Positions 4,365 to 61,926 of a stretch of DNA of 64,000 bases are shown piece after piece. Location of the stretch: assembly GCA_039881145.1 (NCBI GenBank), contig JAYKKI010000062.1, positions 1,743,501 to 1,807,500 of the forward strand, given 5' to 3'. Position 1 is the first letter of the stretch. Each line of letters starts with the position of its first letter. The notes under the pieces are model-generated. The model was not told the DNA's origin, searched no databases, and was given only the letters and a program-made list of their open reading frames with translations. A program made the translations under genes and the position numbers. Source of the DNA: Druceiella hillmani (Eukaryota; Arthropoda; Insecta; Lepidoptera; Hepialidae).

Positions 4365-5744
4365 ATTTAGAGTTTTATAGCTCAAAATAGAAAAAAACAG
4401 CAAAGCCCCACTGGATCACTCATGTATCTCTACGTACGTCCATCTATCAGGGCAATTTTTTGTATGATAACTTTGGAGAGGACAAGTTTGGTTTGAAAAA
4501 GATATTTCTTACTATCCATAGTGTGAGGTGTCAAAAGTTATAAAGATTGCAAACCAATTTTTTTCATAATTTTATCATCTTCACGGTCCTAGAAATATAA
4601 CTGGTAGTATCCATAGAAAACATATTATCTTTGCTACCTCCAAAACTGTTAAAGCTAAAATAATGAGAAACATAGTAAGTACAAAATTACCTAAAATTCA
4701 CCGTATTTAAGAAAATTATAGGAACGATTTTGATTTCACTGTTTTTATGATCTTCATCATTTTTTGCGTCTCAGAACGATATTCTACAAAATCGTACATT
4801 TTACCGAAGATTAAATAAATTTTTAATATTTAATTAGATTATTGTCACATCTAATAAATATTTTAAAAAATGTTATGATCCTTTTTACATATATTAAGTT
4901 TGCCCTTTATACTTGCAAAAATATTTGAAGTTATTAAATTATATTGCTATTTGATACTTTAACTTGTACTTTTATGTATGAACTCCATTTTTATTTACCG
5001 ATATTTTACGAATATTTTATACTTTTAGAGATTTTCGTTTCATTTTTGTAATTTTCACGTCGTAATTTAATGTTATTTAGTTATTTCTTTATACCAAGTG
5101 TTTTTAAATTACTTGTTAATTTGTGTATCGTTTAAAAATGCCAAGTTGACACATTTTAAAAAGTTCGAAAATTGTACCAAAATTAATTACGAATAATAGT
5201 TGGCCTAAGCAAAATATCGAACCTTTGTCTTCAATAACATTTAGAACCGCTACAATTCAGTTTTTCCTTGATTGTAAATTAACATGTATCTTTTCCATTT
5301 TTCACTGCCATTCACACATTCAGGGTTGCTATCCTTTTTATTTGAGACTGTCTAGATAATATCGAGATATTTTCCGCATGTATTGAAACAACCCAACGAG
5401 ATGCTCGTTGAGAGTAAAATATAATTTCCACAACGGAAATAAAACACCCGTCCGAGCTTCCACCGGATAGAGCTTGGCTCTGTCGAGTACATCCGCCGTC
5501 CAGTTGAAAAATTTAAAAGCTTGAAAGGCATCAGGCTACGGAATCGTAAGTTTTTATATATTATATCTCTTTACGGCAGCTTATTTTTGTTCGAAACGTT
5601 TTTAATAAAGGCATTATTTTATCACTAATATTATATTCTTCATAAGAATGTACAAAATTGCTAAAAGTTTCTACACGTAAAGTAAAATCTAAATGAAACC
5701 TTATTTACTAGAAGAACACTTTAAAAGAGACACCGTAGTCATTA

Positions 5745-6385
5745 AGTTTACTAAAATTAAAATGTTTATAGATTAGTTCTCAAAATGATTTGATTACTTA
5801 TGAACACAAATTTACAGAATTCAAACGTCCAACCATAGTAACTTTGCTAGTAATTAATTATATTTTTTCATAGCTAGTGTGTACTAATGTTAATGTATTA
5901 TGAGAAACATTTGTAGTTTCTTTTCAATTTGTGATTTAAGGAACAGGGTTACCAAACTATCAAAACAAAAAAATAACGGAGGCAAACTTCCTGTCAAATT
6001 TTATGCAGGAAAATATTAGCATCGTCAGATGCATCCGACCTCATTAGTCTGGTCGCGTGATATGAGCCCGCGCGACCGGCATTTGGAATTCAAATTGCAA
6101 ACCCCACTCTCACTACACAGCACCCCGAACTGCGCACGCATGTCGCACATGCATATCGCAATTTATTCGGTTGCGAGTTCTTTTATATATATTCCACTGG
6201 TTAAGCTCCTAAATTCCTATTAAAATGTATGTGCTCCAAAATTTATTTATTTGTTTAAGGGAAAATAAAGAGCAAATTATATTTTTTTAATATTGTACTA
6301 TAACAATCCTTTATAATCTGTGACATTTGCATTAATATACGTTTAAGCATCGTGAAATCTATTCAGAATAAAATAAGGGATAGCG
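5745..6385. other. Left-arm-only block of about 640 bp
   Basis: The mirror sequence runs straight from the partner of 6,386 to the partner of 5,745 near 60,708, so this block is an insertion here or a deletion in the right arm. It holds a relatively GC-rich patch around 6,025-6,145. A 64-codon ORF through that patch has no recognisable motif. Confidence 0.75.
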
Positions 6386-7120
6386 AAACGTTTTTAAAAT
6401 AGTAGTTCATGTTTATATTGTTTTATTAACGTAATCACCTCAAGTGTTATTTTTTTCAGGTAAATATTTAAAATCATTCACAGAGACTAAACTGATATAC
6501 AGTTGATCAGTATTATTCATTTTATATTCTTTTGTGTCACTAAATTTCGACACTTGATATAATTGAAACTAAAAAACACTCGCCCTATTTTTATTTCCTT
6601 GCAAGGTCAACTTAACTTTTTTTCGGAGAAGACCAAATTTTTCCATTTTGCCAAAACATTTCCCTTTAGTTCGCTGAACTTAAATCAATGTAGTTGGATT
6701 AATATACTTTACTGACATTGTACTTTGATCAAAGGAATACAAATGGATTTAGCTTAGATTTAACGAAACTGCATATTTCGTCTACATGGTAGCAACTTTA
6801 TCTCCATGATGTTTCTTTCCTTCGGTGTTATCTGCAGAACCGCGTGTCATTTGTGAATTCTGAACTTAATTTTATACTTGGAAATGAATTCCCGGCACTC
6901 TCATGCTCTTAATAATTTAATTAAATATAAATTATTTGCAAAGTAGTTCTTAGATACTACTATTAACTAATATGATAACGAATCGCAAATTAAATGATCT
7001 AGCTGTAAAAAATTCCTGGTACATTTAAAACCACATTTGTGGATCCATTATATGGGTGGAGAAGTACATTAAGGAAAATAGTACACCCATGTCAGTCACC
7101 ACGGCGTAAATTGTTCAATT

Positions 7121-7275
7121 TATGATTTATTTACGTACTTTAATGTTTACAGTTGATACATATGGCAGACTTATTGTTACGAGAGCAATATCTTACAGCC
7201 AACCAGAATACCAGTCCAGCTCAGCTCCCACGGTGCGCCGTACCGTCAAAGACCGTATGCCGTGTGATCAACCGA
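7121..7275 (-). mobile_element. tRNA-derived SINE, diverged copy
   Basis: Reads on the minus strand from a head with GTTGATCACA, through the conserved GGCGCACCG segment, to the body GCTCTCGTAACAATAAGT..GCCATATG and a tail like AAAGTACGTAAATAAATC. It aligns with the copies at 13,571, 27,888 and 39,571. The B-box region seen in the other copies is deleted here, so it is an old inactive copy. Confidence 0.8.
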
Positions 7276-9309
7276 ATACGCCAAAATGACCATTATTTAT
7301 ATATTTAGTCTTACGATCTAGGACTTACTATTAATGATAGATGTCATAATACTTCATTTTTTTCTACTTTGGATGTCATAATATTTAATTTTTTTCTATT
7401 ACTTTTTAGTTAGTGTATAAAGAAATAATATTTATAATTAATAATATTATTTTTAATAATATAAGTTTTAATATTTTAGTTATTCCCAAAAATGTTATAA
7501 TTAAAAATTTTCTCAAACAAATTCCGAATATTTATTTCTACCAGAAAAATAATTTTATCAGACTGTAAATTCTATACTATTACAGCTGCTTAATAAGCAG
7601 TATATTGAAAAACGTAATAATTTCTGATACAACACTTCTAGAGAAACAAGATTAATACAATCTGGCTTATCTGCACATTAATGTGAACCTTTGAATGTCC
7701 TTCCCCAGTGTCATAGAGAATGTGTTAATAAGTGAAAGAAGTTTAGCACATATTAATTATTAAAGAAGTGTAGGATTTCATTGTTGATTTGCCTCTTAAC
7801 ACACGTGAATTAATTATTATTAATTTTTAAGTAAATTATAGTATCACTAATTAATCTTGAAATGTAATAAAAATAAACACGCAATAAATACACGCCTTAT
7901 GTTAATAAACAAGCAAGCAGTTTAGAAATACAGTTTTATTGATCTCTTGATAAATTCGTCAAATAAACTATTAAATTAATGTTACTCAAAGAGCAATATT
8001 TATAGTCCCATTAGGCTTCCAAGCAAACATTAAATGGTACGTCTAAAACAAAGAACATCTGTAAAATATCAATAATACATTAAAACACTATAAGAGCAAA
8101 GAGACAGCAAGGAACCAACTTGGATCTCCTTTCCTTCTCGCGCCTCTGGCTGAGTGCGACATAACCTTGAAACAAATAGCCGGAAATCCACACCTCTTAT
8201 TGTCCGGATCGTATTTATATTCGGAAAGTTGCTATTTGCTTTGCAATTTAACAAAGAGGGACGAGTCATGAATTCGCGTACCCAAGTTTCATGAGTCCAT
8301 ATTGAGCGAAGAGCTGGAGAGAAAGTTCATACTTAAGTGTACGTCAGCGAAGCTTGTATAAGATTACGAAAGCTTTCTGTATACAGAGAGCTTTCAGCTT
8401 ATTAATTGCAGATCAGTTGCGGTGAAGTAAAACTGGAGTAAGAAAAACATCAGTTAGGATAAATTTACTGCTAATAAATATTTTACAGACTAATAATTAC
8501 ATTTCGTAGTAATGACCAGGTTTCAAAATTACGACAATGACATGAAGCTAGTATTATAATTTCTTTCTTATCTTTAATACAACTGATCGTTTTTATTCAT
8601 AATTCATTATGTTTTAAAATTGTCTCAATGATATTTTTGTAATATAAGTTTTCCAGAAACGTTTTTGAGCGTGAGCGATTTAATAAAACTAATACGGAAA
8701 TAGATTCATTTTAACATTATCGAAATATCAAAAATGTTATAGTAAAGGACGAGAGTAAACTGTAGGAGAATTCGGGCAAATACAAGTTAAATATGACTAA
8801 AATTTATGAAAAGAAAACAAACATAAGACGTCATGAGGACTGCCAACAGAAGTGAAAACTTAAAACTATGAAATAACAATGGTTTTATAATATTTTATAA
8901 CATGTTCGATTTCAAAATCTGCGATAAAAATATTATCAAAAACCAGATATCTATTTTACCACACTTGCGAGATAACTCCTAAGCTACTATGAAATATTCA
9001 TGCATGATCCATTGCAGAGTTCGAATGTTAAAAAACTAATTATATCAAATTTTTAAACCCAAATATTTATATGTATATTGCAAATATTTGAAAATAAATG
9101 TAATAATTGCTATTCGTGTCTCTATATAAAAATACTACCATATTTAATACTCGCTGCTATAATGTACATGGATCCTACAATTAAACAATTAAAATGATAA
9201 TCAAATTAAAGCTATGTACAGTATACACATATTGAATTTTCCACGTAGCTAATTTAACTTAGTTAGATAGATATACACAGCTCTAATGTTGCACTAAACG
9301 TTACCCTTA

Positions 9310-9430
9310 TAGCTGCAGATATACTGCTATTACAGCATGTCCGTGACGCGAACTCACAATATTTTACCCATCCAAAAAGCGTTCAACGCGCACATCATAC
9401 ATTCGGGTATATATAATGTGTTGGTGTGTA

Positions 9431-9478
<48 letters not shown>

Positions 9479-9605
9479 TGTATATATGTGCTGGCCAAGC
9501 GCAACATGTCCTACTCATAACCACATTTATACTGTTAATATTGGCATGTCGGTGAACCGAACTCATAAGATTTTCCCCTAACAATAATCGCTCAAGACAC
9601 CCGAA
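9310..9605. repeat. Tandem duplication with (TA)n inside
   Basis: A segment starting near 9,330 (GCATGTCCGTGACGCGAACTCA) recurs diverged near 9,545 (GCATGTCGGTGAACCGAACTCA), giving a direct repeat with a period of about 210 bp. A pure (TA)n tract at about 9,437-9,474 lies between the copies. It is located in the left-arm-only block. Confidence 0.75.
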
Positions 9606-11060
9606 GAAATATTCACTTCAAAAAATTAACCGAAAATTTTGAAACCAGCCACGCATATATCAGTTGTAATTATTTATTTATGGTGGTGTCTTCCTTAGTT
9701 ATTATTTTAAATTTGAATCTGTCAAGTACGAGTAGAAGTCGCACTATGAATGTTCGGTACACATTTAGGAGTCTCTAAAATAATAGATGGAAACATCGTT
9801 TTTTCATATTTTTCAGTATATCTCTGAAAATATATTTAAAATTATGAAAAGAGCCCTCGTAACTAGCCCTTTCAAATGATACACCACACTATGTGAGAAA
9901 CTGACATTTCCTGAAATATATAATTTTCCCCCTAAAATATTCATTGCTGTTATGTATGCCGATTGATACGCTTTATTGCTACGAAAAAATTAATGTTCCG
10001 AGAAAAACACAAGGGTTTTATTTTTCCTTTTGAGTTACAGAATCTTAGAAACTATAAACAATAAAATAATGCTCCAATTTGGCTATCATATATACGCATA
10101 CTTCTTCAACTTTTTTCATTATATAGTTAAGAAACGAACGAAATAGATAAGTACAAGTTCATATACTATTTTTGCTCCATAAATAAACTTATAAAATGGA
10201 ATCATTTAGAGTCACTAGTATTATACCGTGTTTAGATTTTAAAAAACGATTACATCTTAATTTCCATGAACCTAAGACCAAATTTTGAAACTTGTGTCCC
10301 AATAATAAACAAACCAATAAATGGATTAATCTGTAATTTTGTTTAACAAGTGTTCCATTTTTCAAGACTTATCTATAATTAAACAAAATAACGAGAATGT
10401 AATGATTCCGAGAATATCTTTTAATGGCAAGGAGGTTCCGCAATAAAAAACGTATCGAATCTAATTATTATATTTTTGCCCAATTCCAAATCTAATATAT
10501 TTTATAAAATCCTAACAATTATAAACTTACCAAACATGAATTTGTATAAAGCTCTTTATCTTGTTACCTAATTTCTTTCGTGAAGCTCGAGGAAAAATTA
10601 TAACAAAAGCTTATATTAAAGTGATAAATAATTTAAGAAGCAGTCAAAAATAAATTTTTCTTCGTCCGAACAGGAACAATTTATTAAACTATCTCCCACA
10701 GACAAATTCCTTCATCGATTTTGTTAACAAATATTTGTTTTTTGCAGTTTTTTTTTCAATTTTTTCATCTAGCTTTCCTCGTACAAATACTTCTTAGTGA
10801 AAGCTTAGGTGGAATGTTTGAAAATAGACGGGTTAAATAAATTGGAGAAAAGTTTTGGTATTAAATTTAAATTGGCAAATGATTTAACCACTTTTCACAG
10901 GTTAGTTTATGGATTAATTATAACTGTTAAACGTTACCTTTCTCGAAGGAACTAACATAAAGAAGCAAGTTACATATAAAAGAGGAAGATTAATAATAAG
11001 AAACTCTCTTATTTTTTAGGTTTAACGGTTTTTTTCTATTATGAGATTATTTTATCACTT

Positions 11061-11190
11061 AATTTTTTTCCAAAACTAAATGAAACTACATGACGTAGTA
11101 TTATTTCTACTTTTTATAAATTCTTTACTACGACCTAGGTTTCGTTGCATGACATCTTTAGGTGAGCAATTTGTAAAGAATCTTTGTAAA
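11061..11190 (+). repeat. Dispersed repeat, GACCTAGGTTTCGTTG family
   Basis: This sequence resembles 23,631-23,755 (shared backbone CTTTAC.A.GACCTA.GTTTCGTTG followed by CAGGTG/TAGGTG). The two copies are direct repeats within left-arm-only blocks. The family is unrecognised; both copies probably derive from one mobile element. Confidence 0.55.
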
Positions 11191-11434
11191 TTTACCACCT
11201 GCAAATGTTGCCATACAACAAAGTTTAGATCGCGATAAAGAATTTAAATAAAGTGGACATAATACTACATCACCTAATTTTATTTAGGGTGGAACTAATT
11301 AAGTGGTTATAAATTTCTACAAAATTAACGTGAAATGTATTCAATAGATGTTTATTTAAACACAAGTCTAGTTTTTAATTTTTTGAAATGATATACTTGT
11401 TCAAGTTTACATGGAATAATGCATCGTAGCGAGA

Positions 11435-11463
11435 AGGATTGTTCTCAGTTAGTGAACAATCCT
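11435..11463. repeat. Short hairpin
   Basis: A perfect 10-bp stem (AGGATTGTTC / GAACAATCCT) with a 9-base loop. It is not followed by anything that would suggest a known RNA gene. Confidence 0.6.
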
Positions 11464-13309
11464 CCTCATATTTTTTTTACATTTGGTAATTTGTTCTTAC
11501 AGCCCTATTTTCCAACGTGTATTTTTAAAATATCGTAGGCAGATGTGATTTTCATGCACATACAAGAACCAATAGATGAAAAACCAATCGTTTTATGTTG
11601 AGGCACATCCTCTTTTGGTGCATAAGTAGTAAAATAAAATTAGCCCCATTTAAATATATAACAAAAGCATTTACCGTACCTTAAGATGAATGTTAAACAA
11701 AATTCATTACTTTCCGCATATCTTGACATTAAGTGTTTCGGGTAAGAGTACAATAATCGACCATTTGTGATTTTGGATAATTAATTTGCATATTAATTTT
11801 ATTATTTGCATATCCCTCGAAAAAAGAAGAAGCGACAAACGTAATGATGTAACGTCATGTCAACTCAAAAAGCAGATGTCATTGTACTCTCCGGGTCGTT
11901 CGTCTACGAGCCAATAACCTCTCAACTGATGTGTATGTTTATTTTTCTTGCGATTAGGTATTTCTGACTAGATATTTATTCCCTTACTAAAGAAATAATA
12001 TGACATAATGAAAAAATTATTTTCATCAATATTTTTGCAGTAAATACGTTCAGTTGATGTAAATAAACTACAAAAGAGACATATAATTTTTTTTATTTTT
12101 GTATGTTATCCGTCTATGTACCTTTTGACGTTTATTCGTATTAACATACAATTAACAAAAATTTTAAAAAAATCATGGTAAGACGAAAAAACTACTAAAT
12201 GGATTTTGATAGCATTTCCATGTAATAATTTAAGAAGTCCATATGGATACGTCTTTAAATATGAGTATATGATGTGGGAAGTTATGAAACACCAAAAACT
12301 GCGGTCCTGTAATTATCACTTTCACAAAAAAATATATTTTGATACGGGATAGAATTTAAAACAAAGTAACATCGACAAAAAAATCCTTAGGCCAATTAAA
12401 ATGATTTTTATTCCTCCACCACTCTTAAATAATCAGAAAAATATATGAAAAGATCTATATTCAACGGAAATTAATACATATTTAATTAATGTAAATATGA
12501 TTTGAAACACACATCTTGTGAATTCCACGCACACTTGAAGGTTTTTTTTTATCAAATTTGTCTTTTTCTTTATATATCCTATGACCAGGTTGCACTACGG
12601 CTTGTTTAGTAACACCCATAATTTTTTTCTGCTTTTAAATGATTTTATGAATGTGTAAATAATTATTTTTCAGTTATTACAGACTATCTGTGTGTAATCA
12701 ATATGTATGAAGTGTAAAACCTTTTATGGTTTCTTTATGTATATACGCGTATTAGATAAAATAATTCCAACTAATTTTGATTTACATGTACAAAAGACTT
12801 GCAACTTCATTCAAAAATAAATCTGAATACTTTTCAAAGCTAGTCATTTATAGAACTGAATATTACAAAGAGTATAAATTTCGATTTGAGTCCCCAATGG
12901 GATACGAGAAAAGAGGGTTGCCCGATAGGACAAAATTGGGACAATTAGATACACAGGGTTGATTGTTGAGATAGTCCCAATGAATCTGCTGTCTTTTTAA
13001 TATATAAACTCTGTAAAATTTTCTTTTCAATACTAATGTCGCATGAAATATCTGTCCTTTGCACTAATAAACGAGTGAGTATTCATTTGTGAGAATCAAT
13101 AATTGGTTTGAAATTACAAATTTTCAGACAATTTTGGAACTGTGAAGAAATACAACACAATATCCAGCTGTTTGAAATTTACAAATTAAGTCCAACAGGT
13201 ATACATTATATAAGCAATCCTTTTTAATGCGTACGGAAAATACATCACAAGAACAAAACTCGCATGTTAGAATGGGGTAACACCCATGGGTGTCATCATA
13301 ATAATAAAC

Positions 13310-13400
13310 TCAAGCTACTCTGATGATGCAACCCTTCTAGCAGTGAACGAGTCAAAAATGGTATCTCTCCTGGAAAGAATGTAAGCTATCAGTGACGACT
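13310..13400 (+). pseudogene. Possible reverse-transcriptase scrap
   Basis: The translation reads YSDDATLLAVNESKMVSLLE, a stop, then AISDDLNE. This resembles the YADD catalytic box of non-LTR reverse transcriptases and the residues that normally follow it (YADDTTLLA.....L..LL). Only about 30 codons are recognisable and no flanking RT motifs are intact, so a chance match is possible. The element would be an old LINE fragment. Confidence 0.4.
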
Positions 13401-13570
13401 TGAATGAAAAAATCTCTGATCGTTTTTGCTGTACAATGGGAAAAATTTGAAACAGTCAGGTAGTCTTAGGAAAATTTGAGGTATAACGGAATTTGCTCTT
13501 AATATTTGATCATTTGTAAAAAATATACACTTGTCTTCAGAAGAGATGCACTTTAAAAAGATGTGGGTCT

Positions 13571-13752
13571 TCTTTATTTATCTACTTTAATGTATCTAAT
13601 TAATAAATTTGGCGGAATTATTGCTACGAGAGCAATCTCTTACAGCCAACAATAGCACCAGTCCAGCCCCGCCCGACGAACGGCCGGGAATCGCACCCGC
13701 GTCTCCGCGGTGCGCCGCATCGTCACAGGCCGTACGGCTTGTGATCAACCCA
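13571..13752 (-). mobile_element. tRNA-derived SINE, longest copy
   Basis: The most complete of four copies. On the minus strand it reads GTTGATCACAAGCCG, then GCGGCGCACCGCGG, then a B-box-like GGGTGCGATTCCCGG, then a GC-rich GGGCGGGGCTGG segment, a body with GAGATTGCTCTCG, and an A-rich tail resembling AAAGTAGATAAATAAAGA. A pol III promoter-driven SINE mobilised by a partner LINE is expected from this layout. ORFs across it are artefacts of its GC-rich head. Confidence 0.88.
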
Positions 13753-16700
13753 ACATACCACGGGGACGATAGTCTTAGTGTGTGTTTGATATTTACATCA
13801 AAGCTGGCTTAAGCACATAGCCATAGCTCGTACGAAAATTAAAAAAGTGTAGTGTAATATAAAATAATGTTCTTATGGAAAACTCTAGGATGAATAGTTT
13901 TCATTTTCAAGAAACAGGCTCATTAAATAGTTAAAAGTTAGGCTTGAAAGCGACAATGGTAAAAAACTTACTTTTGCATTTATACTAATATTGTTAGGAT
14001 TAGGACTAGATAGAGTTTTGCGCTCGTGAAGCGAGTGTGCCCGCTTGGCTATCCATATTCTAGAGCAATAATACCTCAAGTCAAAAAATCGTCGTCCTTC
14101 AAAAAGGGATCTCAGTTCTCACTTTATAATTGGAGTGCCTCTAATTTCTTACCGTGTTTTTTGGTACCCTTTACGGTGTATATATGTTATAATTCTCGAC
14201 GATTAAATTTCATAAGAAGATTGCGAAGGTTCACCATAACATTGGATTCTTTGTTCTAACTGTGCGAAAATTTCTTGATATGTTTTGAATTTGGTTTGAA
14301 TTGGAAAATGATTTGAATTTGGTGGTCTGAATAGTATTTTTGTACAGTAAGGACTTAATTACTATTATTTATTTTAGTCGAACACTTTTGAAGGAGTACT
14401 TGTGGTAGTAAAATGCTACGATCATAATCTCCTCAGCTGTTGCTATTTTACATCACCAATCTCCGATTGTGCTATCGCGAGTACACTATTTGATGTAATG
14501 TTTTGCAATAATGAGACCTGTATATTTAACTGTTGACCAATCACTTCACCGCTTATCTTTACTCCTTTTTGAACTACCAGACCACTTCAATGAGTTGTGA
14601 TTGTGGGTAACGTGATAAAATGGCTGTAGGATTTCTAGATGATAGTGACAACTAATGTAGAATGATCGATGAACTCGTGTGTTTTATTCGCAGTTTTCTA
14701 ATCAACAACAGTTCAACAACACACTAGATCATAATACACACTAGATTATTGTGTGGTGTTACATTAATAAATCAATAACTTAAAATAGCCACCAAAATAT
14801 ATTTATCAGAAAGCAAGATTAACCAATAATACTTTTTCAATTCATTTTAGCCCCCTGTGACCTGTATACTAACTTCATTCTTATGTTTTCTAATTAATTA
14901 CATTTTATTTATATTAACTTTTTTTTATAACTTTTAGTTTTATTCTAATATTAAAGCTTAATACCTAATTATAAAATCTGCCATATATATTATTATAGCT
15001 AGCTTACTATTGATACAGGGATGTATAATTTCCTATTCGACGTCATCCCAAAGGCGGGCAAAGCTCTCTACTCCATTATTTTACACCATGATTTCTTTTG
15101 TAGACCTCTCTTCTAAATTTAACAAGTTTTTTATAAAAAAACTATAATTTCTTCATTTAGAGCCATTTCTGGATGTATATAAATATATAGAATCATATAA
15201 TAGAATTACATTTAAATTTTCTTTGCCTGAGACTTTAAATATGAGTATGGCTAATCTTCCTAAGATACCTCTAATTTGCATGACATTATCTTCCCACTTG
15301 TTTAAACACGTATTCCATTTCCATGAACACCTTAAGGTAGATAAGTACGGCACAATATGTGGTCTTCATGTTCAATTAAGTTCTCACCGTATTTTTTAAT
15401 CCATCCTATAATAATATCTGAATATACCCCACTCGTATATATTGTATATATATAGCTTGTCTTACATCCGATAATCTTTCTGTTTATTGTAGAATTGTTA
15501 TATTTATTGCTAGCTAGGTAATAATCCGCGAAAATTAAAAAAAAGTCCGCGAAATTCGCAAACAAATCTTTGAGTAATTTCCTACTAACGTTATATATAC
15601 TTACTTACAGTACTTACATTATATAAGTAGTGCCAATAATTGTATCGGGTTATCAGTATAATAATAATGTTTTAATATTATTAACTGTGAAATGGAATCT
15701 TCTAGGAAGATAATAAATAGATAATACCAATTTCTTGCGATATAGAGGTCATTTAATGAGAAATTCTTTTTTGAAACACGACTAATTAAATACCAAAAAG
15801 TTTTTCTTATTGAATACCAATTTTTAACCGATTTCTCATATAAAACAACGCTAATTTTACTGTTGCCAGGAATAAACTTATGATTTACCATAATCCCAGA
15901 GAGAAAATCCAATGATTTTAGGTCATATCCTCTTAAGAGCTAATCAACATAATTAAAATGAAACTTTACCTGATCGCAAAATTTATCTTTCGAGAAATTT
16001 ATATGTTTAATGGGTTTTTATCGGCTTCGTGATATGTTGCAATTACCTGGTTGAATCTACATGTATTTCCAATCAAAATGAACTATTAGTGCCACAAAAT
16101 CCGTATTAAATTTTCTGCAACGTTCAACACTCACAGTAATAGCGTTCTCAGCGGTATTTAAAAAAAACGGGCATGACAACACACCATGTGATGGAGTATT
16201 TTTTTGTAAATATATAGGTATTGCAAGTGTGGCCTGAGGATTATCATGGACCCAAAAGTACCAATTTTCTATATCTACCAAGGAATTTTAAAGAAAAATT
16301 AATTTCGTCATCAGACATTATTTTTTATTAAACAATGAATAACTTTCAATCCACTCTAATTAGTCGAATCAACAAAATTTCTATTCAATTGTTTTAAGAT
16401 CTTGAGGTGTTTAAATTTTTTGCGTCTCTTAAGGCAAATCTTCATACAGAATATTACCTACAAGGCTCCTGTAGATTATAGTTACACGAGAAAGTTCAAG
16501 TTCTTGGGAATTGTGTACAATCGATTGATTTTAATTTTTACTCAAACTTGGATTCAAAGCGTTGATATTATCAGAAATATGTACACTTTTTTGCCGCGTT
16601 AAATTCTTTGCATCATAAGTCCTATCAGTTGACTCAAATTTAATGTTTAGGTTATGAATAACAGGCCCTATAGTTCGATTCGGGTGCCTAAAATAATCAA

Positions 16701-17829
16701 ATCGTTTACCATATATAGAATTAATACTCATTATTATTTAAGAAATTTTAAAAATTTCTGTATGTTGTATAAAGTTACATATTTCCATAATGATTTGCCA
16801 CACTGATATAAATGTAAATTTTTATGAAAATTTCAAACTTAAAACATGGGGACTATTACATTTAAAAAAATACTATTTTCAAGACCCTTTATGGTGAATA
16901 GGAATCTTATCACGTATTTCTTTAATTTCACAGAGATTTTCTTTCTTACGGTTACTTTAAAAGAAAATGAATTATCCAAGGATCTTCAAGGATTATGCAA
17001 GGATTTTAAATTTTTGTATATAATTAAATGTTATATTTCCATATTTATTTAGCTTTCACTTGATGTCACCTTTAACGGGTATAAAAAATATATACATAAA
17101 TATATACAATCCACCTGAATGAACAATTTTGCTTTACGTTTTAATAATATTATTTCATATTTTAATGTCTAAAAATTTAAACTATATTTAAAACGTTATT
17201 ATAACCACGAAAATTTGGCATGTTCATATTTGATAACACACTAATTTTAAAATTTACCACATTTTAAACTTAATTGCGAAGAGCTCTTACACTTGGAATT
17301 GCTTGGATTTCAATAACTTTGTTAGCTCAATAATTGATTATTCCTCAATGAAAACTTTTTCTAAACATTCATAGTGTCGTTTGTCTGTCTAGATATTTGT
17401 AATTAATGTCTGTGAAAATAGTTTGTAAAGTATGATTAAACACGGAATTTATTACATTGTACTGTATGTTTTGGTATGGAATTATTAAAAAAACGTGAGT
17501 TGGACTCATGCACGAAACGTTTTATAGCTCTAAACTAATTGTTAAACTTATAAAGTTGCGTTATTCAAAGAGACTATGAAAAAAAGTTATTGTAGTCGGT
17601 ACCGAAAATATCCTATATCTCAAAAAACTGAACAAAATATCTTAGTGAAACCAATTTTCGTTAAAAGTGTATTATATATTTTTGTATATATATTTATAAA
17701 CCTCTCTTACCATAATTCACACACCTATTTGCACTAGATTTTATGCCTCGGTTACATGTATGGAATGTCATACCTGATATTATTCTTTTCATAATTCAAC
17801 TAATTTTTTGTATAGCGATTCATAGAAAG

Positions 17830-17960
17830 CACACACAATTCCAATAGTCTCTGATTAAAATGGCTGTGAGACATCCACAGACAGATGGACAGGACAACAT
17901 TTTAAGAGTTCCGTTTTTACCTTTTGGCTACGGAAACCTGGAAATATTTTTTATCTATTT
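17830..17960 (-). repeat. GGTTCCGTAGCC-type repeat, left-arm copy
   Basis: On the minus strand it reads close to GTTTCCGTAGCCAAAAGG, then AAAACGGAACTC and CTGTCCATCTGTCTGT. This layout resembles a dispersed repeat that I associate with insect genomes (from memory, not searched). It has a mirror partner at 60,000-60,125, so it was present before the inverted duplication. Confidence 0.65.
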
Positions 17961-18060
17961 ACTTTACCATATATTAAAAATAACTGGAAGTTTTAATAAA
18001 TATTCTATTTATTGATATAGCAAACCGGTAGTTCAACAAACCGGCGCTCACATTTATCGC

Positions 18061-48068: not shown

Positions 48069-48315
48069 ATCCATCTAAAACTCCGTATTTAAAGTAGCGG
48101 GTACAAAATCGATATTCATTTATTTAATTTGCAGTATATACCGCAATATATGGTTACACGGATATCCGAAATATTAGTAATAATAAACCCAATTTATTTT
48201 TAAACACAAAGTTAAATCTTCCTAATGAAATAATAAAGGAATTAATTGCCATGAAGGATTAAGATATCGTTATCGACGCGTACGTCGACATAAAGATTTA
48301 GTTTGTCCGTGCGAC

Positions 48316-50004
48316 GTTAAGAACCTTCAAATTTTTGTACCATCTATAACTGGCAATTTTTACGCCGAACAGATGACGGGACTTAAACGTTATATTTTGT
48401 GGATTTGGTTTTGATGACGTTCTCGATTGTGCTTATTCTTCAGACTATATTGTTAAATGAGTCATATCGGGTTCTTACAATCATTAATATACCTTTTAAT
48501 AATGATTAACCTTTTTAAGAGCTTCGAAAACACTTTGTAGGCCGTCCACCAATCTTAATTTGGCTCTTCCTCTTCCTCTTGAGCCAGTTGGTTTGGCCAG
48601 AAAAATTAGTTTTGTTGTTTTATCTTCCTTCATTCTAATTATATGGCCGGCCCACTTCATACGTTGAATTATTATAAATAGTATTATATCTGGTTTTTTA
48701 AATAAGCGATAAATTTCGGAATTACTTCTACTTCTCCAAAACCCAGTTAGAGAATCCACCAAATATTGATCTGAGGGTTTTTCATTTGAAAATTTTAAGG
48801 GTTTTGTATCATAATCAGATGCATATGTAAGTGCTGAACTGAGTAAGCGTCTTAGTCGTTAAGATCTAATTAAGTGTCTCTTCTGATATTCTTGGAATTC
48901 AGAAATATTCTTAGTCCAGGAAAGCATCTATTGGCTGCAGTTGTTCGTCTCCTCCAATAATATTTATTTGCTTGAAATGCTGCAGAGATTTTTCTATCTA
49001 CATTTTTTGTTTAGCGGTTAGACCAATTCAGCAGTTTTTGAGAAAATGACAGACATACATGTACAAAGTTCAAAATTTTACTTTATTTCTTTAATTTTTC
49101 TGAAAATCGATAACCATTTATGAAATAATAGCTATAACCTGAATTTATCGAACACAGTAAATAAGTAAAAATTTGCCTAGTTTATAGGTTTAATTGAGGT
49201 ACGTAGTCATTTAAAATTTTAAATATTTGTAAAATTTAAAGAAATATAGATGGATTATCGGAAATGTATACATTATTAATGTTAGTAAAAACTACTTAAT
49301 TTTATTTTTGTACTTACGTAGATTTTATTCTAACATGAGATTTAAATTAAATTGTTTATTTACATTTTTTGATGTGTTCTAGAAAGTAATCGATTTACTT
49401 TATAAAGATAACAATTTAAATATAACTTTGATTTATCAAAGTAAGGTTAAAGCACTTATTTGGTAAGGTTAACACTAATATTTTATTAAGAGTATTTTTT
49501 TATATGTTTGTAAAGAGTGTAGAACTATTTTGCCGACAAATTAAAGAATTAGTCTATTGGAAAGGTCACACACAACATGCGATTTGCAATTATTATGTAA
49601 TGAGAAATTCATGAGACATGTTTCCACTGCAATACATTAGGATTTGGCCCAACAAAAGGTATGTTTGATAACACATGCACATATTTTTTGTACGTTAAAA
49701 CACACTCTTTTAATCAAAACTGTTTTAATTAAACAGTATAAAAAATAACAACAAATAATTAATATGATTTAAATAATAACTTTTATAAAAAAATATTCCA
49801 AACTATTGTTTCTTGTGTACAGTGTTGAAAAATTAGTAAACATTTCTTTTGTCATCTTTTTGAGTAGTAGTCAGTAAAACATGTAATCGGCGAAAACTAC
49901 CTTGTACTTGGATGTAATAAGGGGTTACATTTTATTATATTGGTGTTCAGGTTAAAGCTGTTATAACACTTTAGCTTCCTAATATTTTCCAGGTAAGATT
50001 ACTG
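48316..50004. other. Right-arm-only block of about 1.7 kb with LINE scrap
   Basis: The flanks pair with contiguous left-arm sequence near 25,880-25,890. Its first third contains the RTE-like reverse-transcriptase end on the minus strand; the rest is AT-rich without recognisable features. No clear target-site duplication is seen. Confidence 0.7.
48496..48990 (-). pseudogene. C-terminal fragment of an RTE-like LINE polyprotein
   Basis: Minus-strand translation in two frames shows, in order, TTAANRCFPGLRIFLNSKNI (near 48,885-48,945), LTYASDYDTKPLK (near 48,800-48,840), then IIQRMKWAGHIIRMKEDKT and GSRGRGRAKLRLVDGL (within 48,496-48,762). These correspond to conserved blocks after the RT domain in many arthropod LINEs: AANRC..GL....S, LTYASE.W, R..W.GH..RM and G.R.RGRP..RW.D. 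A stop at the end of the first block and frame changes show that it is dead. It is 5'-truncated, as is usual for LINEs. A different family from the LINE at 40.7-45.8 kb. Confidence 0.85.
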
Positions 50005-50224
50005 AAAATGCGCAGTGTAAACTTGTTTTATTATACATAACAGGTAGTACTCGTACGAGTCAAAATATCTCTTACATGTGACAATATTTTGTTTCCAATT
50101 CCTTTCCATTCGGATACAAAACCTAAAAAAATCAAGACAGACGTGAAACATCTATTTTTTTTCTGGTCGATTGGCAGGACACTACGTGGCATCAAAACGT
50201 TTTAAATTCCATTCAAACGCGTCA

Positions 50225-51679: not shown

Positions 51680-52567
51680 AAATGCATCAACGTTGTTCAT
51701 TTCATGTACTCGTATTTGAATGAAATTTGTTATTTGCATTGATCCGATTTGATGAATGATTCAAATAAAGCGTGATGAAATACATTTACAGAAAGCAGGA
51801 AATTTGTAAAGATGAGAAATGTTCAATCTATGCGTTGTTCATTTCGCGTATTTCGATGAAATTTTTTATTTTCATTGATTCGTTTTGATGAATGATTCAA
51901 ATAAAACGTGATGAAATACATCTACAGGAAGCAGGAAAGTTGTATAGATGAGAAATGTTCAGTCTATACCTTGTTCGTTTCATGTATTTGGATGAAATTT
52001 GTTATTTGCATTGATCCGTTTTGACGAAAGATTCAAATAAAGCGTGATGAAATACATCTACAGGAAGCAGGAAAGTTGTATATATGAGAAACGTTCAGTC
52101 TATACGTCGTTCATTTCATGTATTTGGATGAAATTTGTTATTATCCGTGTTGATGAATGATTCAAATAAAGCGTGATGAAATACATCTATAGGAAGCAGG
52201 AAAGTTGTATAGATGAGAAATATTCAGTATGTGCGTTGTTCATTATGCTTATTTCGATGAAATTTGTTATTTGAATTGATCCATTTTGATGAATGATTCA
52301 AATAAAACGTGATGAAATACATCTAGAGGAAGCAGGAAAGTTGTATAGATGAGAAATGTTGTCTATACCTTGTTCGTTTTATGTATTAGGATGAAATTTG
52401 TTATTTGCATTGATACGTTTTAATGAATGATTCAAATAAAGCGTGATGAAATACATCTACAGGAAGCAGGAAAGTAGTATAGGTGAGAAATGTTCAGAAT
52501 ATGCGTTGTCATTTCGCGTATTTCGATGAAATTTTTTATTTAAATTGATCCATTTTATTGAATGGAT
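51680..52567. repeat. Minisatellite, about 136-bp unit, at least 6 copies
   Basis: Units start with TTCAAATAAAGCGTGATGAA at about 51,760, 51,896, 52,032, 52,161, 52,297 and 52,431, giving periods of 136, 136, 129, 136 and 134 bp. Each carries CAGGAAGCAGGAAAGTTGTA and GATGAAATTTGTTATTTG. Units alternate between two variants (CGCGTATTTCG and CATGTATTTGG). The left-arm partner at 23,875 has about two units. Confidence 0.92.
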
Positions 52568-53060: not shown

Positions 53061-54973
53061 TACAACAATTCTGTTCGAAACCTCAGGGTACAGGAACTTC
53101 AAATTGAGGTACAATTAAAGATGTATCATTGACGATCGTCTTTGCTAAGATTTCAATTTTAAAGGATAAATACAATTACTATTTCTTATGTATTTAATTA
53201 TCTGTTTTATTAGTCCTGCCATCTCTGTAAATTCATTTAATAAACCGCTGAGGTGTCATAACAAAATCAAACCTCAGACAAGACGCATAAACGAGGATTT
53301 CAATTAAAGGTTGCAAACTCTAAGCCAGCGAATCAAAACACACGTAACATAAAACAGATATTATGTTAAAATTCTAGGTGTCTAAGAATAGCGTGTCATT
53401 ATTCCTGGCTTTAGGCAGTATATTGTAATTAAATAAAAATTTTATATTCAATTTAGTGGTATTCAGTTCTAATTATTTTTTATAAAAATGAAAATCGCCT
53501 ACATACTCTTGTAATTGTAACTGAATTATATGCTTTAATGTGTAAATGAACATTCAAAAAATTGCATAACAAGAGACATTCTAAATAAATTCTGGTAATA
53601 CTTGAATATTTACTTTTTAGGGAAAGTTTTTAAAAGGCATACTTTTTGTGACATTTTCAATACTATATTATTATTAGTTTCAATTATTATTTTTAATCCG
53701 AACTCAAAATTCGAGATGTGGTATACGCATTTCGTTTCGAAACCGGGGAACCCCAATAAATACTGAGTATAAGAAAAAAACATTGATCACGAAAATATAA
53801 TATCTTGAAAACTATGCATTATAGACTATAGTGCATAATTTTCAAGTCATTAGAACGAAATTACATTTAATAATGTTAAACTAAGCATTCTGTGAAGTTT
53901 CAAACGTATTAAACCAAAGATGTTACAAGTACTCGTGGACATCACGCAGATATAATTGACACATGCAATCAGAAGAAAAAGTTGAGTACGAATATATGCG
54001 CAGCGACGCACATTAATTTATTCTATCTCTAGCTTTTTTCACCCAAACACGATATTTAAGGAGTCACGTTTTTCGTCGTTCTACGATTCATCAAATAGAT
54101 TATAAATATAATTTAAATTGTTGATAATTAGTGCATTAAAAAATGATAGAAAACGTTAAAAAAACATCGAGATAGGTGGCACCAAAGAAAAACTGAAGAT
54201 TCGAATTAAGCGACGGACTTTACGGAGCGCACCAATTTGATGCGACACGCCGCCAAAGTTATAATTGTTATTCGACTTGTAACATATTAAACGTCATCAA
54301 ACTAGCCGTCCTGCTCCAATACCACTACCTATGATTTTTGAAAGAAAATTAAATTAAAAATAATTATTATATCAGTGATTATAACATTAAAAAAATGTCG
54401 AAAGTCGTCACAAAGTCATACTGAATTTACAAAATAAAATGGAGGGAAAATCAATTGTTTTCAGTTTAATGAGTTCAATGTAAAACTTCAGACAAAAATT
54501 TTATAGTTTAATTTTTTACATAAGAAATTGCTTGTAAAAGATTTTTACTTTTCCAATCACGGCAAAAGTAGAACGAAACAAAACTTCGTAGCATGTTCCC
54601 CTTCGCGCATCTAGCTATTGTGATAGCATTTGAGAATGAATAATGAATATATTAGACAAAAAATGAGATGAAAAAGTAAAAATTTAATCCGAAAACAATT
54701 TAACAACTTATAGAATGACGAAGGATCGACATCAAAATTTCCATGCAGAAAACAAAAGAAAACGAATCAAGGCACAAAATACATTGAATCAATTTGTGGA
54801 AAATTTGCAGGACGTGTGTGAAATATTAAAAGCATATGTAAATTTAAATAAAAAACCAAATGATACAACGTGGTAGGCCCAGATTAAATTTTCTAACGTG
54901 TTATTGCTCCCTAGATAAGAAATAATATTATCTTTAGCTCAATATTTGTAGACACCTGTTAATATTTGTAGAC

Positions 54974-55024
54974 TCCGTTTAGAAACTTTAGCCTTGTCAC
55001 CAAAGGCAAAAGTTTCTAAACGGA
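54974..55024. repeat. 51-bp imperfect hairpin
   Basis: Arms TCCGTTTAGAAACTTT and AAAGTTTCTAAACGGA plus inner GCCTT/AAGGC pairing around a short loop. It is directly preceded by a 20-bp tandem pair with AATATTTGTAGAC (54,940-54,975). It sits 60 bp inside one end of the right-arm-only block and may be that element's terminal structure. Confidence 0.85.
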
Positions 55025-55239
55025 ACTTTTGTCTTTGTTAGGTTATAAATGTTTATTAATATAACACTTTTTTAACAAAGTGTAGTAAAAATTCTTTCAC
55101 AAATATAAATGGTGAATATTTTGGAAAACATGTAACATTTTACATTCACTCGTTATAACTAAAAAAACAAATGATATTGCACATCATATATTCAATAATT
55201 ACTTAATCAGTTGGTACTACGTTTTATGCATTTACATAA

Positions 55240-55372
<133 letters not shown>

Positions 55373-55499
55373 TAAATGAATAATATAAATAACAATCCTG
55401 TTTGCGTAAAATTGAACCGTTCTTTATAGAAAAACCAAGAGATAAGTTTTTCCCTCGTTAAGTAAATAACGAATACTCATTTTTATCATTATGTATGTG

Positions 55500-55760
55500 A
55501 AAGGTATGAATGGAATCCTATTGTGTTTGTTATGATGTTTGTCCGCTCGCTCGTCCATCCGTCTGTTTCTCTGTCAGATACTTCTAATTATTAAAGTAAA
55601 TAAAAACAGAAATTGCAATTCATAATATGTAATACCCAGACCTAAAACTAGAAATAGTTTTGAGAATGACTTAGCATTTTATTTGGAAACCCTCACGTTT
55701 ATGTAAAGAGAGATCTTTAGTTAGAGTAGAAATCGGCTTTTTCACTGAAGAATAATTAAT
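55500..55760 (+). repeat. CCGTCTGTCTGTCAGA-type repeat, copy 3
   Basis: Contains TCGTCCATCCGTCTGTTTC, CTGTCAGATACTTCTAATTA and CCTAAAACTAGAAATAG, matching 23,015-23,230 in the same order. It is diverged and located in the right-arm-only block beside a (TA)n tract, as the copy at 52,790 also is. Confidence 0.65.
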
Positions 55761-56714
55761 TGATCAACCATCCAATTTAATATTTCTGGATCTATTTTGT
55801 TACCAAGTCTATTTAGTATTGTTACATAATTCAGATGTAATATTTTTAATTTCCCGTATTTAAATAGCAAACAGTAAAAAGAGCTAAATATAAAATTGTA
55901 AAAAATATATAAACACAAATTTCTGAGTGTTTTTGAGAAATTGCCTATATTTTTACGCGCATGAGAGACACACTAAACACTTTATTTTCATAGTAAAAAT
56001 AATATTTATATTTGCAAATATTGTAATAGAAAAACTATATGCCTTGAATGGTTTTAATTTTTATACGAGCCTAAGTGTGTATGAAACCTGCGTGATTCGA
56101 GTTCCACTGAATTTAACCGACATTAATTTTGAAATGTCCAGAGGGGTGTGTGCATTTAATTTTCAAATTAAGAATTTAATGAATATTGGTTGTAAAAAAT
56201 CCGTGGTACCAGTTTGATATTGAGAACAAACAGGACGTTAAAAACAAAAACTTGTCAAATACTAGAATGACTCGATAACTACATTATTTAACGGCATATA
56301 TAATTGTAATTTGAGTATAATATTTATTTATTTTTTTAATATTTTTTAGAAATGTCGCATAAGATTTTTATATATAAAAAAAATTAATGTTATTATTCAG
56401 AACTATGTTGATAGCGTTCTGCACTTGTCTTTAATTGTCTGTGTGTCACTGCGATTTTCCCAGAAACCATTTGTTATAAATATTTGAAATAGTAATAGAT
56501 CATATTCGCACGCATATTTTGCAATAGTTAATATCTTTAAATAATTATGTAACAATTTTATAACAGACGAGTTATATAATTTTGCTTTAGTTTTATATTT
56601 AGTGTCCTGGTTTAAGACAATTATTTAAAATTTAAAATGGCTTGCTCCCAGAAATCTTCCAGAATTTATCCTTATCCCTTCAGAATTTATCCTCTTATAA
56701 CCAACAAAGTGTTG

Positions 56715-57261: not shown

Positions 57262-57825
57262 CCGGGACGAGTTATGATACTCCAATTAATATATGCAAAC
57301 AGGCCTTTTTAAATTTCAAGTCAGGGGAGCCACGAGGGACAGAAAATGTAAAAAATCAAGAATACTTAGCAGCAATACGCATATGTCACTATTGATGTCA
57401 CCCGTATATTATTAATTTGTGCCTTCCTTTTATATTTATAGAATCAAATATGTTTTATATAAAAAATACCAGGGCAAAAAAGATACTAGGAATAGAAATG
57501 ATAGCATAAGCCACTATGCGAGTGTCACTATCAAAATATATATAATAAAATATGTTTTATATAAACAATTCCTAGACAGAAAGGCCACGAGGAATAGAAA
57601 TGATTTCATAAGTCAATATAACTATGAACCACTATACGAATATCACAATCCATATCCCCAATAAGTTATTAACGTGAACATTTCTTTCAGACGTATCCAA
57701 TAAAATATGTTTTATGTAAACAGTTCCTGACAATAAAACCACGAGGATTAGAAAAGACATCATAAGTTAAGAACACAACTCATCACTACGCGAGCATCAC
57801 AATCAATGTCCCCAGTTCATTCTAA
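57262..57825. repeat. Direct duplication, copy A
   Basis: About 98% identical to 58,762-59,325 (about nine differences seen). Its left flank continues the palindrome arm (matching 19,820-19,850), its right flank does not. It contains the 145-bp minisatellite units. Confidence 0.93.
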
Positions 57826-58755
57826 TCTACTCTTCTAATGTCTGCAGACTAAAGAACGGTTTATTATGAACGAAGTTTTTAATAAACTTAGTATCACCGA
57901 GTACATGGTTAACTGCACATATCTAAAGAAGCTATTTGCACATTTTCTATACGGACTGGCGAGAGCACAAAAATGACGGTAGAAATTATTGAAACGGACG
58001 ATGATTTTTGGAAGAAAAACATTGAAAGGAATTTAACTAATTTGTATAAAGGTTGTTTACTTTCAGAGTTGGTCGATCGACGGCATTCAAGGTCAATAGT
58101 ATTAATAATTCGACAATATATTTTGGATTCCATAAAAAGGAAGAATGAAGTTGGGATCTAAAATAAGATTTTGGAGAGGATTCTTTAGGTAAAACCTGGA
58201 GAATAATAATAAAATTATTTCCAAATATTTTAAACTTTTGACGAATACAAAATCATAGTTTTTTCTGAAATTTATGTATAAAACCGTTTATTTGATATTT
58301 ACCTTCCACGTGCTGACAGATTTATTATGTCAGATTGAATTAATTTTTCCAAATTTATGTTAAGTTTTAAAAAATCTAGAATTCCTGAAAAAATCGATAA
58401 TATTCAACGGTCTAGCATATACACAGAACGCACCATGGACGAGAGAGCCATGAAGAACTAATAAACCAGACAGGATAACCCTCGACAGGGTGCTTCACTG
58501 GGGAAAAAGAATAAGCTTAGTTTTGCTCCATAAAAGTGCGGGGTTGTTCTCTCCGAGGGTACCTCATTTACTTGTAAAGGTGAGATTAGTACTCACCTGA
58601 TACTTTTGAACGGATTGAAATTTTGAAAACTCAATCCTGTCTATTATTTGTTGCAATTTCATAGGAGACATGGTGTTTTAAGCGCAAATTTAAAAAGGAT
58701 CGCATTACATAATTGTCCGGTCCGTACCTGTGGTTGCAAAATGTGTAATATGGAG
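57826..58755. other. 930-bp insert between duplicated copies
   Basis: This sequence has no partner in the left arm and sits between the two direct copies. It is less AT-rich in places (58,430-58,580). An open frame of 62 codons (57,973-58,161, plus strand, TVEIIETDDDFWKKNIE near its start and a charged middle) looks more protein-like than most frames in this window. I recognise no family and there is no paralogue here to test it. It may be an exon or TE fragment brought in from elsewhere. Confidence 0.6.
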
Positions 58756-58761
58756 CGTAAT

Positions 58762-59325
58762 GCGGAACGAGTTATGATACTCCTATTAATATATGCAAAC
58801 AGGCCTTTATAAATTTCAAGTCAGGGGAGCCACGAGGGACAGAAAATGTAAAAAATCAAGAATACTTAGCAGCAGTACGCATATGTCACTATTAATGTCA
58901 CCCGTATATTATTAATTTGTGCCTTCCTTTTATATTTATAGAATCAAATATGTTTTATATAAAAAATACCAGGACAAAAAAGATACTAGGAATAGAAATG
59001 ATAGCATAAACCACTATGCGAGTGTCACTATCAAAATATATATAATAAAATATGTTTTATATAAACAATTCCTAGACAGAAAGGCCACGAGGAATAGAAA
59101 TAATTTCATAAGTCAATATAACTATGAACCACTATACGAATATCACAATCCATATCCCCAATAAGTTATTAACGTGAACATTTCTTTCAGACGTATCCAA
59201 TAAAATATGTTTTATGTAAACAGTTCCTGACAGAAAAACCACGAGGATTAGAAAAGACATCATAAGTTAAGAACACAATTCATCACTACGCGAGCATCAC
59301 AATCAATGTCCCCCGTAAGTTATTC
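58762..59325. repeat. Direct duplication, copy B
   Basis: Second copy of 57,262-57,825. Its right flank (CCCCGTAAGTTATTCGTTTG) continues the palindrome arm, matching about 19,245-19,268. Together the copies have the form arm, A, insert, B, arm. Confidence 0.93.
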
Positions 59326-59524
59326 GTTTGTACTTTCATTTTACACACGTCGAATTATATATGTTTCACATCAACCTGTAATTTTATTTCATGTTTTATA
59401 TTATAAATTAACTTTGCATATAATTTGCATGAATATACTGCCTTTATAATTAATTATAAATTGCTTCCCAGATTTTCAGTTCAAAATGTACTATTAAAAT
59501 TAATTTTATACATTTTAATAACAC

Positions 59525-59900
59525 AACCCAAGAAATATGTATCCCTTTCAGCAAGAACGTCGATTAAAGTTTGCCCGGCTCGGGACTCATAGAGCTATGA
59601 AAGCGCAAAAATATCGCTGAGTAATGTGAGAATAACGCGCTAAACTTGCAAGATGTCGTTAAATTGCCATTAACCTTCAATCCATTCAGGATCATATGGG
59701 ATCAGCGAATAAGAGTTCGAATATCGCCAAGGACAAGTGCGTTGACCTTTCGATCTGATACCAAATTGGATAATCGTTACTTTGCACTTCATCGTTTTTA
59801 CGTTACGAAATTCAAATTCCGTAGGACAGCACGCGATATGCTAGTGTCGACATGGAAACATTAATGGCGGTCGCCACTTGATTTCGATTACCGGAGGGAA
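59525..59900. other. Highly conserved block, right copy
   Basis: Mirror of 18,061-18,425. Bases 59,698-59,843 are identical to the left copy. The 72-codon frame on the plus strand (59,646-59,864) differs at five residues. The frame begins with TTG and no domain is recognised, so coding is not claimed. Confidence 0.6.
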
Positions 59901-59999
59901 ATAGCAATAAATATGAGCGCGGCTTGTTGAACACCAATTTGATATATCAATAAATAGAATATTTATTAAAACTTCCAGTCATTTTTAATATATGGCAAA

Positions 60000-60125
60000 G
60001 TAAATAGATAAAAAATGTTTCTAGGTTTCCGTACTCAAAAGGCAAAACGGAACTCCTAAAATTATGTCCTGCCCATCTGTCTGTACGTATCTTACAGTCA
60101 TTTTAATCAGAGACCGTTATACAAT
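60000..60125 (+). repeat. GGTTCCGTAGCC-type repeat, right-arm copy
   Basis: Reads GTTTCCGTACTCAAAAGG, AAAACGGAACTCC and CTGCCCATCTGTCTGTACG. Mirror of 17,830-17,960. Confidence 0.65.
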
Positions 60126-61804
60126 GAAATACTAGAATTATGAAAAGAATAATATCAGGTGGGACACTCCATACATGTAACCGAGGATAGAAAAAATCCA
60201 GTGCAAGTAAGTGTGTGAAATATGGATAAAGAGGTTTATAAATATATATACAAAAAATATATAATACACTTTTAACGAAAATTGGTTTTCCTAAGATATT
60301 TTGTTCAGTTTTTGAGATATAGGATATTTTCGGTACCGACTACAATAACTTTTTTTTTCATAGTCTCTTTTAATAACGCACCTTTATAAGTTTAACAATG
60401 TTTGGCGCTATAAAACGTTTCGTGCATGAGTCTGTAACTGAGTAATGTTTTGGCAAAATGGAAAAATTGGTCTTCTCCGAAAAAAAGTCAAGTTCACCTT
60501 ACAAGGAAATGAAAATAGGGCGAGTGTTTTTTAGTTTCAATTGTATCAAGTGTCGAAATTTAGTGATACAAAAGAATATAAAATGAATAATACTGCTCAA
60601 CTGCATATCAATTTAGTCTCTGTGCCTGATTTTAAATATTTACCTGAAAAAATAACACTTGAAGTGATTACGTTAATAAAACAATATAAACATGAACTAC
60701 TATTTTAAAAACTATTACTACGGTGTCTCTTTTAAAGTGTTCTTCTAGTAAATAAATTTCATTCAGATTTTCCTTTACGTGTAGAAACTTTTAGCAATTT
60801 TGTACATTCTTATGAAGAATATAAAATTAATGATAAAATAATGCCTTTATTAAAAACGTTTCGAACAAAAATAAGCTGCCGTAAAGAGAGTTAATATATA
60901 AAAACTTCCGCTTGAGCAGCCTAACACCTTACGAGCTTTTATATTTTCCAACCGGACGGCGGATGCACTCGACAGAGTCAAGCTCTATCCGGTGGAAGCT
61001 CGGATGGGTGTTGTATTTCCGTTGCGGAAATTATTTTTACTCTCAACGGGCAGTTCGGTTGTCTCCCGTTGGGTTGTTTCAATACATTCGGAAAATATCT
61101 CGATATTATTTGGACAGTCTCAAATAAAAAGGATAGCAACCCTGAATGTGTGAATGGCAGTGAAAAATGGAAAAGATGCATGTTAATTTACAATCGATGA
61201 AAAACTGAATTGTAGTGGTTCTAAATGTGTTTGAAGACAAAGGTTCGATATTTTGTTTAGGCCAACTAATATTCATAATTAATTTTGGTACAATTTTCAA
61301 ACTTTTTAAAATGTGTCAACCTGGCATTGTTAAACGATAGACAAATTAACAAGTAATTTAGAAACACTTGGTATGACGAAATAATTAAATAACCATAAAT
61401 TACGAAGTGAAAATTATAAAAATGAAACGAAAATCTCTAAAAGTATAAAATATTCATAAAATATCAGTTACTAAATATGGAGTTCATACATAAAAGTACA
61501 AGTTAAAATATTAAATAACAATAGAATTTAACGACTTCAAATATTTTTGCAAGTATAAAAGGGCAAACTTAATATATGCAAAAAGGATCATAACATTTTT
61601 TAAAAATATTTATTAGATGTGTCAATAATCTAATTAAATATTAAAAATTTGTTTAACCTTCGCATAAACGTACAAGTTTTTAGAATATCGTTCAGAGACG
61701 CAAAATACGATGAAGTTCATAAAAACAGTGAAATCAAAATCGTTGCTATAATTTTCTTAAATACAGTGAATTTTTGATAATTTTGTACTTACTATGTTTC
61801 TCTT

Positions 61805-61826
61805 AATATATATATATATATATATA
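61805..61826. repeat. Short (TA)n tract
   Basis: Eleven TA units close to the outer end of the right arm. The left partner near 4,455-4,470 lacks it. Confidence 0.85.
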
Positions 61827-61926
61827 CATACAAAAAATTGCCCTGATAGATGGACGTACGTAGAGAAACGCGAGTGATCCAGTGGGGTTTTGTTGTTTTT
61901 TCTATTTTGAGCTATGAAACTCTAAA

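Follow-up and report, generated by a model that had tools for sequence, protein, structure and literature searches.

The nearest described object that we found to the structure reported here, a giant imperfect palindrome in the genome of the hepialid moth Druceiella hillmani, is the low-copy repeat at the breakpoints of inversion 2Rj in Anopheles gambiae (PMC1952172). The palindrome lies in assembly GCA_039881145.1, contig JAYKKI010000062.1, within positions 1,743,501 to 1,807,500 of the forward strand; this stretch of 64,000 nucleotides, with a G+C content of 30.2%, is hereafter the window, and all coordinates below refer to it. As described in that account, the 2Rj module is likewise a non-coding inverted repeat from an insect; it consists of degraded repeat remnants, and its 5.3-kb arms enclose a spacer of comparable length (4 kb), yet these arms are more than 99% identical and the module is present in two copies at the inversion breakpoints (PMC1952172), whereas the arm intervals of the moth structure span 28 and 26 kb and are about 87% alike. 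Palindromes contained within single scaffolds are also described from the invertebrates Folsomia candida and Adineta vaga, but collinear genes define those palindromes, which are discussed in connection with parthenogenesis (PMC5490193), whereas we found no host gene in the moth palindrome. The palindromes of the human Y chromosome, large inverted repeats as well, are reported to owe an arm similarity above 99.9% to gene conversion (PMC3723533), a process that can have acted here on the outer part of the arms at most.

An initial annotation, made from the letters of the window alone, likened the structure to the inverted duplications of sex chromosomes and amplified loci. This analogy is not supported, given that the arms are far from near-identical and that neither codon phase nor Pfam searches of the arm stretches scanned detected a repeated or amplified gene. 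Our search of the literature on lepidopteran microsatellite-associated elements found nothing. On the sequence evidence set out below, we consider the locus to be, probably, an old inverted segmental duplication that is now decaying, a judgement that concerns the duplication itself and not the cause of the less diverged outer part of its arms.

Anatomy of the palindrome

Comparison of the window with its own opposite strand, followed by chaining of the matches, recovered 14 inverted blocks whose order is strictly mirrored, the outermost beginning at 4366/61926 and the innermost ending at 32380/35541. The left arm interval (4366-32380, plus strand; 28,015 bp) and the right arm interval (35541-61926, minus strand; 26,386 bp) flank a spacer of 3,160 bp (32381-35540) that has no inverted partner and contains a diverged pair of direct repeats (33375-33527 and 35052-35188, 75%). 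The homologous blocks, the longest of which extends over 3,872 alignment columns, sum to 13,870 bp on the left (49.5% of that interval) and to 13,902 bp on the right (52.7%), and the remainder, about half of each interval, is specific to one arm. No opposite-strand self-match at E ≤ 1e-5 arose when the window was re-sampled 20 times under a first-order Markov model, against 14 blocks in the real sequence, which chance is therefore far from explaining. Mean divergence between the arms is 12.7% over 13,389 aligned columns (0.127; 916 transitions and 782 transversions), with 10.5 gap events per kb. The initial annotation had given arms and spacer the same coordinates as those recovered here, and had listed at least a dozen ordered landmark pairs. 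Its description of a 57.6-kb palindrome filling almost the whole window is accurate as to extent, from 4366 to 61926, but not as to content, as the blocks cover only about half of each arm interval; the gap-free identity of individual blocks also ranges more widely than the 85-96% that it estimated, from 81.5 to 95.5%.

The unmatched flanks inside the window are short (4,365 bp beyond 4366 and 2,074 bp beyond 61926), and one gap within the palindrome itself spans 10.8 kb; homology could therefore resume past the window, and the structure measures 57.6 kb at least. The outer edge lies in sequence that may resemble a common lepidopteran interspersed repeat.

Two strata of divergence

The arms are not uniformly diverged, a feature absent from the initial annotation. 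The best single change-point lies at left position 18480, with a divergence rate of 0.069 outside and 0.139 inside it, and the likelihood ratio of this step near 18.5/59.4 kb (98.7) was reached by none of 300 shuffles of 100-column blocks, the shuffle maximum being 66.3. On the left, the outer stratum occupies 4366-18521 (plus strand), in blocks 4366-4466, 4665-5757, 6390-6660 and 17503-18521, and its right copy comprises about 2.5 kb at 59432-61926 (minus strand), while the inner stratum extends over 19161-32380 (plus strand) and 35541-59416 (minus strand). Divergence is 7.1% in the outer and 13.9% in the inner stratum; corresponding Kimura two-parameter (K2P) distances are 0.0747 (2,441 columns) and 0.1550 (10,948 columns, computed from left position 19298 on), such that the outer stratum is about half as diverged. 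In bins of 400 columns, all six outer values are low (0.03-0.11), and the inner values run from 0.082 to 0.205. The step coincides with a left-only stretch of 639 bp (18522-19160, plus strand), opposite which the right arm holds about 15 bp. A further gradient within the inner stratum, from 0.170 outside of 24215 to 0.124 toward the centre, is not firm, being reached by 15 of 300 shuffles.

Search for genes

No host gene was found in the palindrome, in agreement with the statement of the initial annotation that no gene explains the structure. Mismatches between the arms carry no codon-phase signal: the lowest p value among 383 windows was 0.0037, where about 1.4 such values are expected by chance, although this test excluded windows that had fewer than six mismatches, and a very conserved short exon would escape it. 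A Pfam scan of six-frame pseudo-translations, in which stops were read as X, together with ten single open reading frames (ORFs), produced matches that passed the curated cutoff only in a long interspersed nuclear element (LINE) in the right arm; genes without a known family could be missed by such a scan. The six-frame part covered 42,415 of the 64,000 bases (1-4365, 6661-16658, 18000-32380, 32381-35540, 46671-48069, 48315-50006, 54909-56074, 57747-59431, 59432-61926 and 61927-64000), and so included the whole of the spacer and the right copy of the outer stratum, both without a match. On the left, 4366-6660 and 16659-17999 lay outside it, within which 4467-4664, 5758-6389 and 16659-17502 also have no scanned mirror; the right stretches outside it mirror scanned left sequence, except for the LINE, which was covered by its ORFs only, and some short right-only pieces. 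Hits below the cutoff (Peptidase_Mx1, 0.005; Pox_A11, 0.0088; RyR, 0.098; DUF6014, 0.089; Herpes_UL16, 0.046) were judged to reflect chance or composition. No Rfam family reached its gathering score in the window, ARAGORN (bacterial code) detected no tRNA there, and none of nine candidates for the fragment 48499-48858 was significant.

Origin of the palindrome and of its outer stratum

Missed-adapter and recent fold-back artefacts yield near-identical arms, and are excluded here by the 13.9% divergence of the inner stratum and its gap events, about 11 per kb. Under an old inverted duplication, a stretch of at least about 13 kb without detectable genes would have been copied in the opposite orientation beside itself, leaving the 3.2-kb spacer, through fold-back or template-switch repair or through a staggered-break inversion. 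Staggered-break inversion is one general route to inverted duplications. Origin-dependent inverted-repeat amplification is another (PMC10766186), and the structure is compatible with both. The arms differ by substitutions, small indels, a transposon insertion and a tandem duplication, and probably also by deletion, differences that would have built up as the arms drifted with little sign of constraint, their direction being in part presumed. Using the Heliconius mutation rate of 2.9e-9 per site per generation (PMC4271535), which is borrowed from another species, the inner arms would have separated about 27 million generations ago (14-60 million over the confidence interval of the rate) and the outer arms about 13 million generations ago (7-29 million). 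We propose no function for the palindrome, which we regard as a decaying scar.

The outer stratum is most likely explained by gene conversion at a later time, in a tract that would have overwritten one outer arm with the other and halted at a large heterology. A second possibility, which we consider less likely, is growth in two steps: the inner part would have been duplicated in inverted orientation first, and the outer stretch copied afterwards from the flank of one arm to that of the other; this would be compatible with an old inverted duplication, not an exclusive alternative to it. Two-step growth would account for the divergence step and for its position at 639 bp of left-only sequence facing some 15 bp, as a non-contiguous junction would leave, and the 10.8-kb left-only stretch (see below), which has no flanking repeat, may under this explanation never have been copied. 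However, a conversion tract halting at a large indel would look identical, and the gap rate of the outer stratum exceeds half that of the inner. Overall, the simplest account is a decayed inverted segmental duplication that underwent one of these two later events in its outer part.

Some observations weigh against a younger outer stratum in arms free of constraint. The lowest inner 400-column bins overlap the outer range slightly, and gap events number 8.2 per kb in the outer and 11.1 per kb in the inner stratum, a smaller contrast than that for substitutions, and one that a simple younger age does not predict. Moreover, the longest identical run in the palindrome, 146 bp at 18121-18266 (plus strand; mirror within 59432-60432), points to constraint acting locally or to a tract of recent conversion, and because of it an absence of constraint is not proven everywhere. 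This run, which may be a conserved element or mark a conversion tract of small size, was reached by none of 2000 shuffles of the outer columns, but its weight is moderate, as the longest shuffled run was already 142 bp. Separately, we observe that the run falls within a frame of 79 codons that neither arm interrupts (18103-18339, minus strand; 59625-59861, plus strand). A conserved exon at 18103-18339 was considered and rejected, since Pfam gave no match and no protein was found to have three words in common with the copy on the right arm.

The 146-bp run is also the observation that speaks for constraint, in place of younger age, as the cause of the low outer divergence as a whole. We think this unlikely, as all six outer bins are low rather than a few, the right outer copy lacks a Pfam match in all six frames, and the gap rate is only about one quarter below that of the inner stratum, though constraint should suppress gaps.

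With respect to the palindrome itself, the initial annotation had raised the alternative that the assembler fused two diverged haplotypes head to head. These would be versions of a single locus, of allelic, gametologous, supergene or asexual type. Old haplotypes would likewise appear as collinear noncoding arms with private insertions, and palindromes of collinear blocks are described in the parthenogens F. candida and A. vaga (PMC5490193). Yet the inner divergence of 13.9%, with 11.1 gap events per kb, compares with a diversity of about 2% in Heliconius melpomene, the sole species compared (1.9-2.0%, genome-wide and intergenic; PMC4858797). A misjoin would additionally require 3.2 kb at the centre, as well as both outer flanks, to be without a match, and the two divergence strata also count against it; we regard it as improbable, although gametologs, or supergene or asexual haplotypes, may still fit. 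A giant transposable element whose terminal inverted repeats are very long is far less probable still, for although inverted arms do flank a spacer in a repeat-rich setting, we found no transposase or integrase (the spacer has no Pfam match, and the scanned arm stretches none above cutoff except in the right-only LINE), no shared target-site duplication was seen by eye at the outer edges 4366 and 61926, though the true ends may lie elsewhere, and the arms are a patchwork with private insertions.

Sequence specific to one arm

The initial annotation was also correct that each arm has its own insertions. The right arm carries the LINE, a duplication of about 1.5 kb and an expanded satellite, and the left arm a stretch of 10.8 kb that the right lacks. 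This left-only stretch (6661-17502, plus strand) faces a filler of 11 bp in the right arm and, because of that filler, fits deletion or non-copying better than insertion; its loss from the right arm, or a failure to be copied there, is more probable than its insertion in the left, and a scan for flanking direct repeats found none around it. Within it, a self-complementary stretch of 250 bp (11056-11305, 71%) is possibly a foldback or miniature element. Besides the 639 bp at the step between the strata, other left-only sequence consists of a 632-bp insert (5758-6389, plus strand) with a possible 7-bp flanking repeat, and of two stretches that are left-only or nearly so, of 198 bp (4467-4664) and 377 bp (28321-28697). 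At four further places, with left coordinates 20276-20934, 22747-22829, 23355-23891 and 28116-28158, the two arms carry sequences that differ in length and for the most part do not match.

Right-only inserts occur at 46671-48069 (1.4 kb, no Pfam match, with a possible 6-bp flanking repeat), 48315-50006 (1.7 kb, no Pfam match above cutoff) and 54909-56074 (1.2 kb, no Pfam match). The direct duplication of about 1.5 kb, also right-only (57263-59316), is bounded by 554-bp copies (57263-57816 and 58763-59316) that are 97.8% identical, and the satellite is a tandem array of 6.4 copies of a 136-bp unit (51711-52564), the left counterpart of which, near 23890-24143, is about two units long. Across the 10 gap intervals scanned for flanking direct repeats, candidates of 6-7 bp were present at two (the 632-bp left and 1.4-kb right inserts), at the 1.5-kb duplication the tandem copy itself was detected, and nothing was found at the remaining seven, the LINE among them.

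The LINE is a right-only insertion of 5.1 kb (40694-45809, minus strand) whose 3' end is an ATT repeat. Its ORFs, all on the minus strand, lie at 44518-45315, 42804-44063 and 41163-42800, and between them match Pfam domains for a Baculo_FP-type ORF1, an endonuclease and a reverse transcriptase; a single stop codon within ORF2 separates the endonuclease part (42804-44063) from the reverse transcriptase part (41163-42800). The element is nearly intact over 41163-45315, with an ORF1 frame of 266 codons that carries the Baculo_FP-type C-terminal domain. Hits below cutoff in these ORFs (Exo_endo_phos_2, 0.014; BLOC1_2, 7.2e-6; and others) were likewise judged to reflect chance or composition. Of 7,983 candidates scored against the reverse transcriptase, 3,875 matched significantly, and the closest among the matches listed has 70% identity. 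For the best 120 of the 3,875, an organism is named in 17 cases, all of them moths or butterflies at 42-49% identity, for instance Euphydryas, Plutella, Melitaea, Loxostege and Amyelois. Taken alone, these matches would point to a lepidopteran, or to something closely related such as a caddisfly, as the probable host, although LINEs can mislead and do not prove it.

A short interspersed repeat is present in four copies (7126-7226, 13570-13718, 27889-28023 and 39574-39722), with the listed pairs 77-83% alike. Two of the four copies are palindromic partners of each other, and the insertion of this mirrored pair therefore probably predates the duplication.

Implications

A more speculative reading, doubtful at present, is that of a gene-free and possibly autosomal palindrome that, millions of generations after its origin, went on exchanging sequence at its outer ends or gaining more there, such that its youngest parts lie outside and its oldest inside. 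Such an order would come from outward growth by repeated template switching, or from end-directed gene conversion between the arms with no gene to select for it. Otherwise, the locus is a routine genomic scar, of use chiefly for the caution that it carries, since assemblers and haplotype purging may take arms of this kind for alleles. An order that is old inside and young outside would allow related genomes to test outward growth of the arms against their partial rewriting. Old inverted duplications with datable strata record the origin and decay of palindromes away from the well-studied sex chromosomes.

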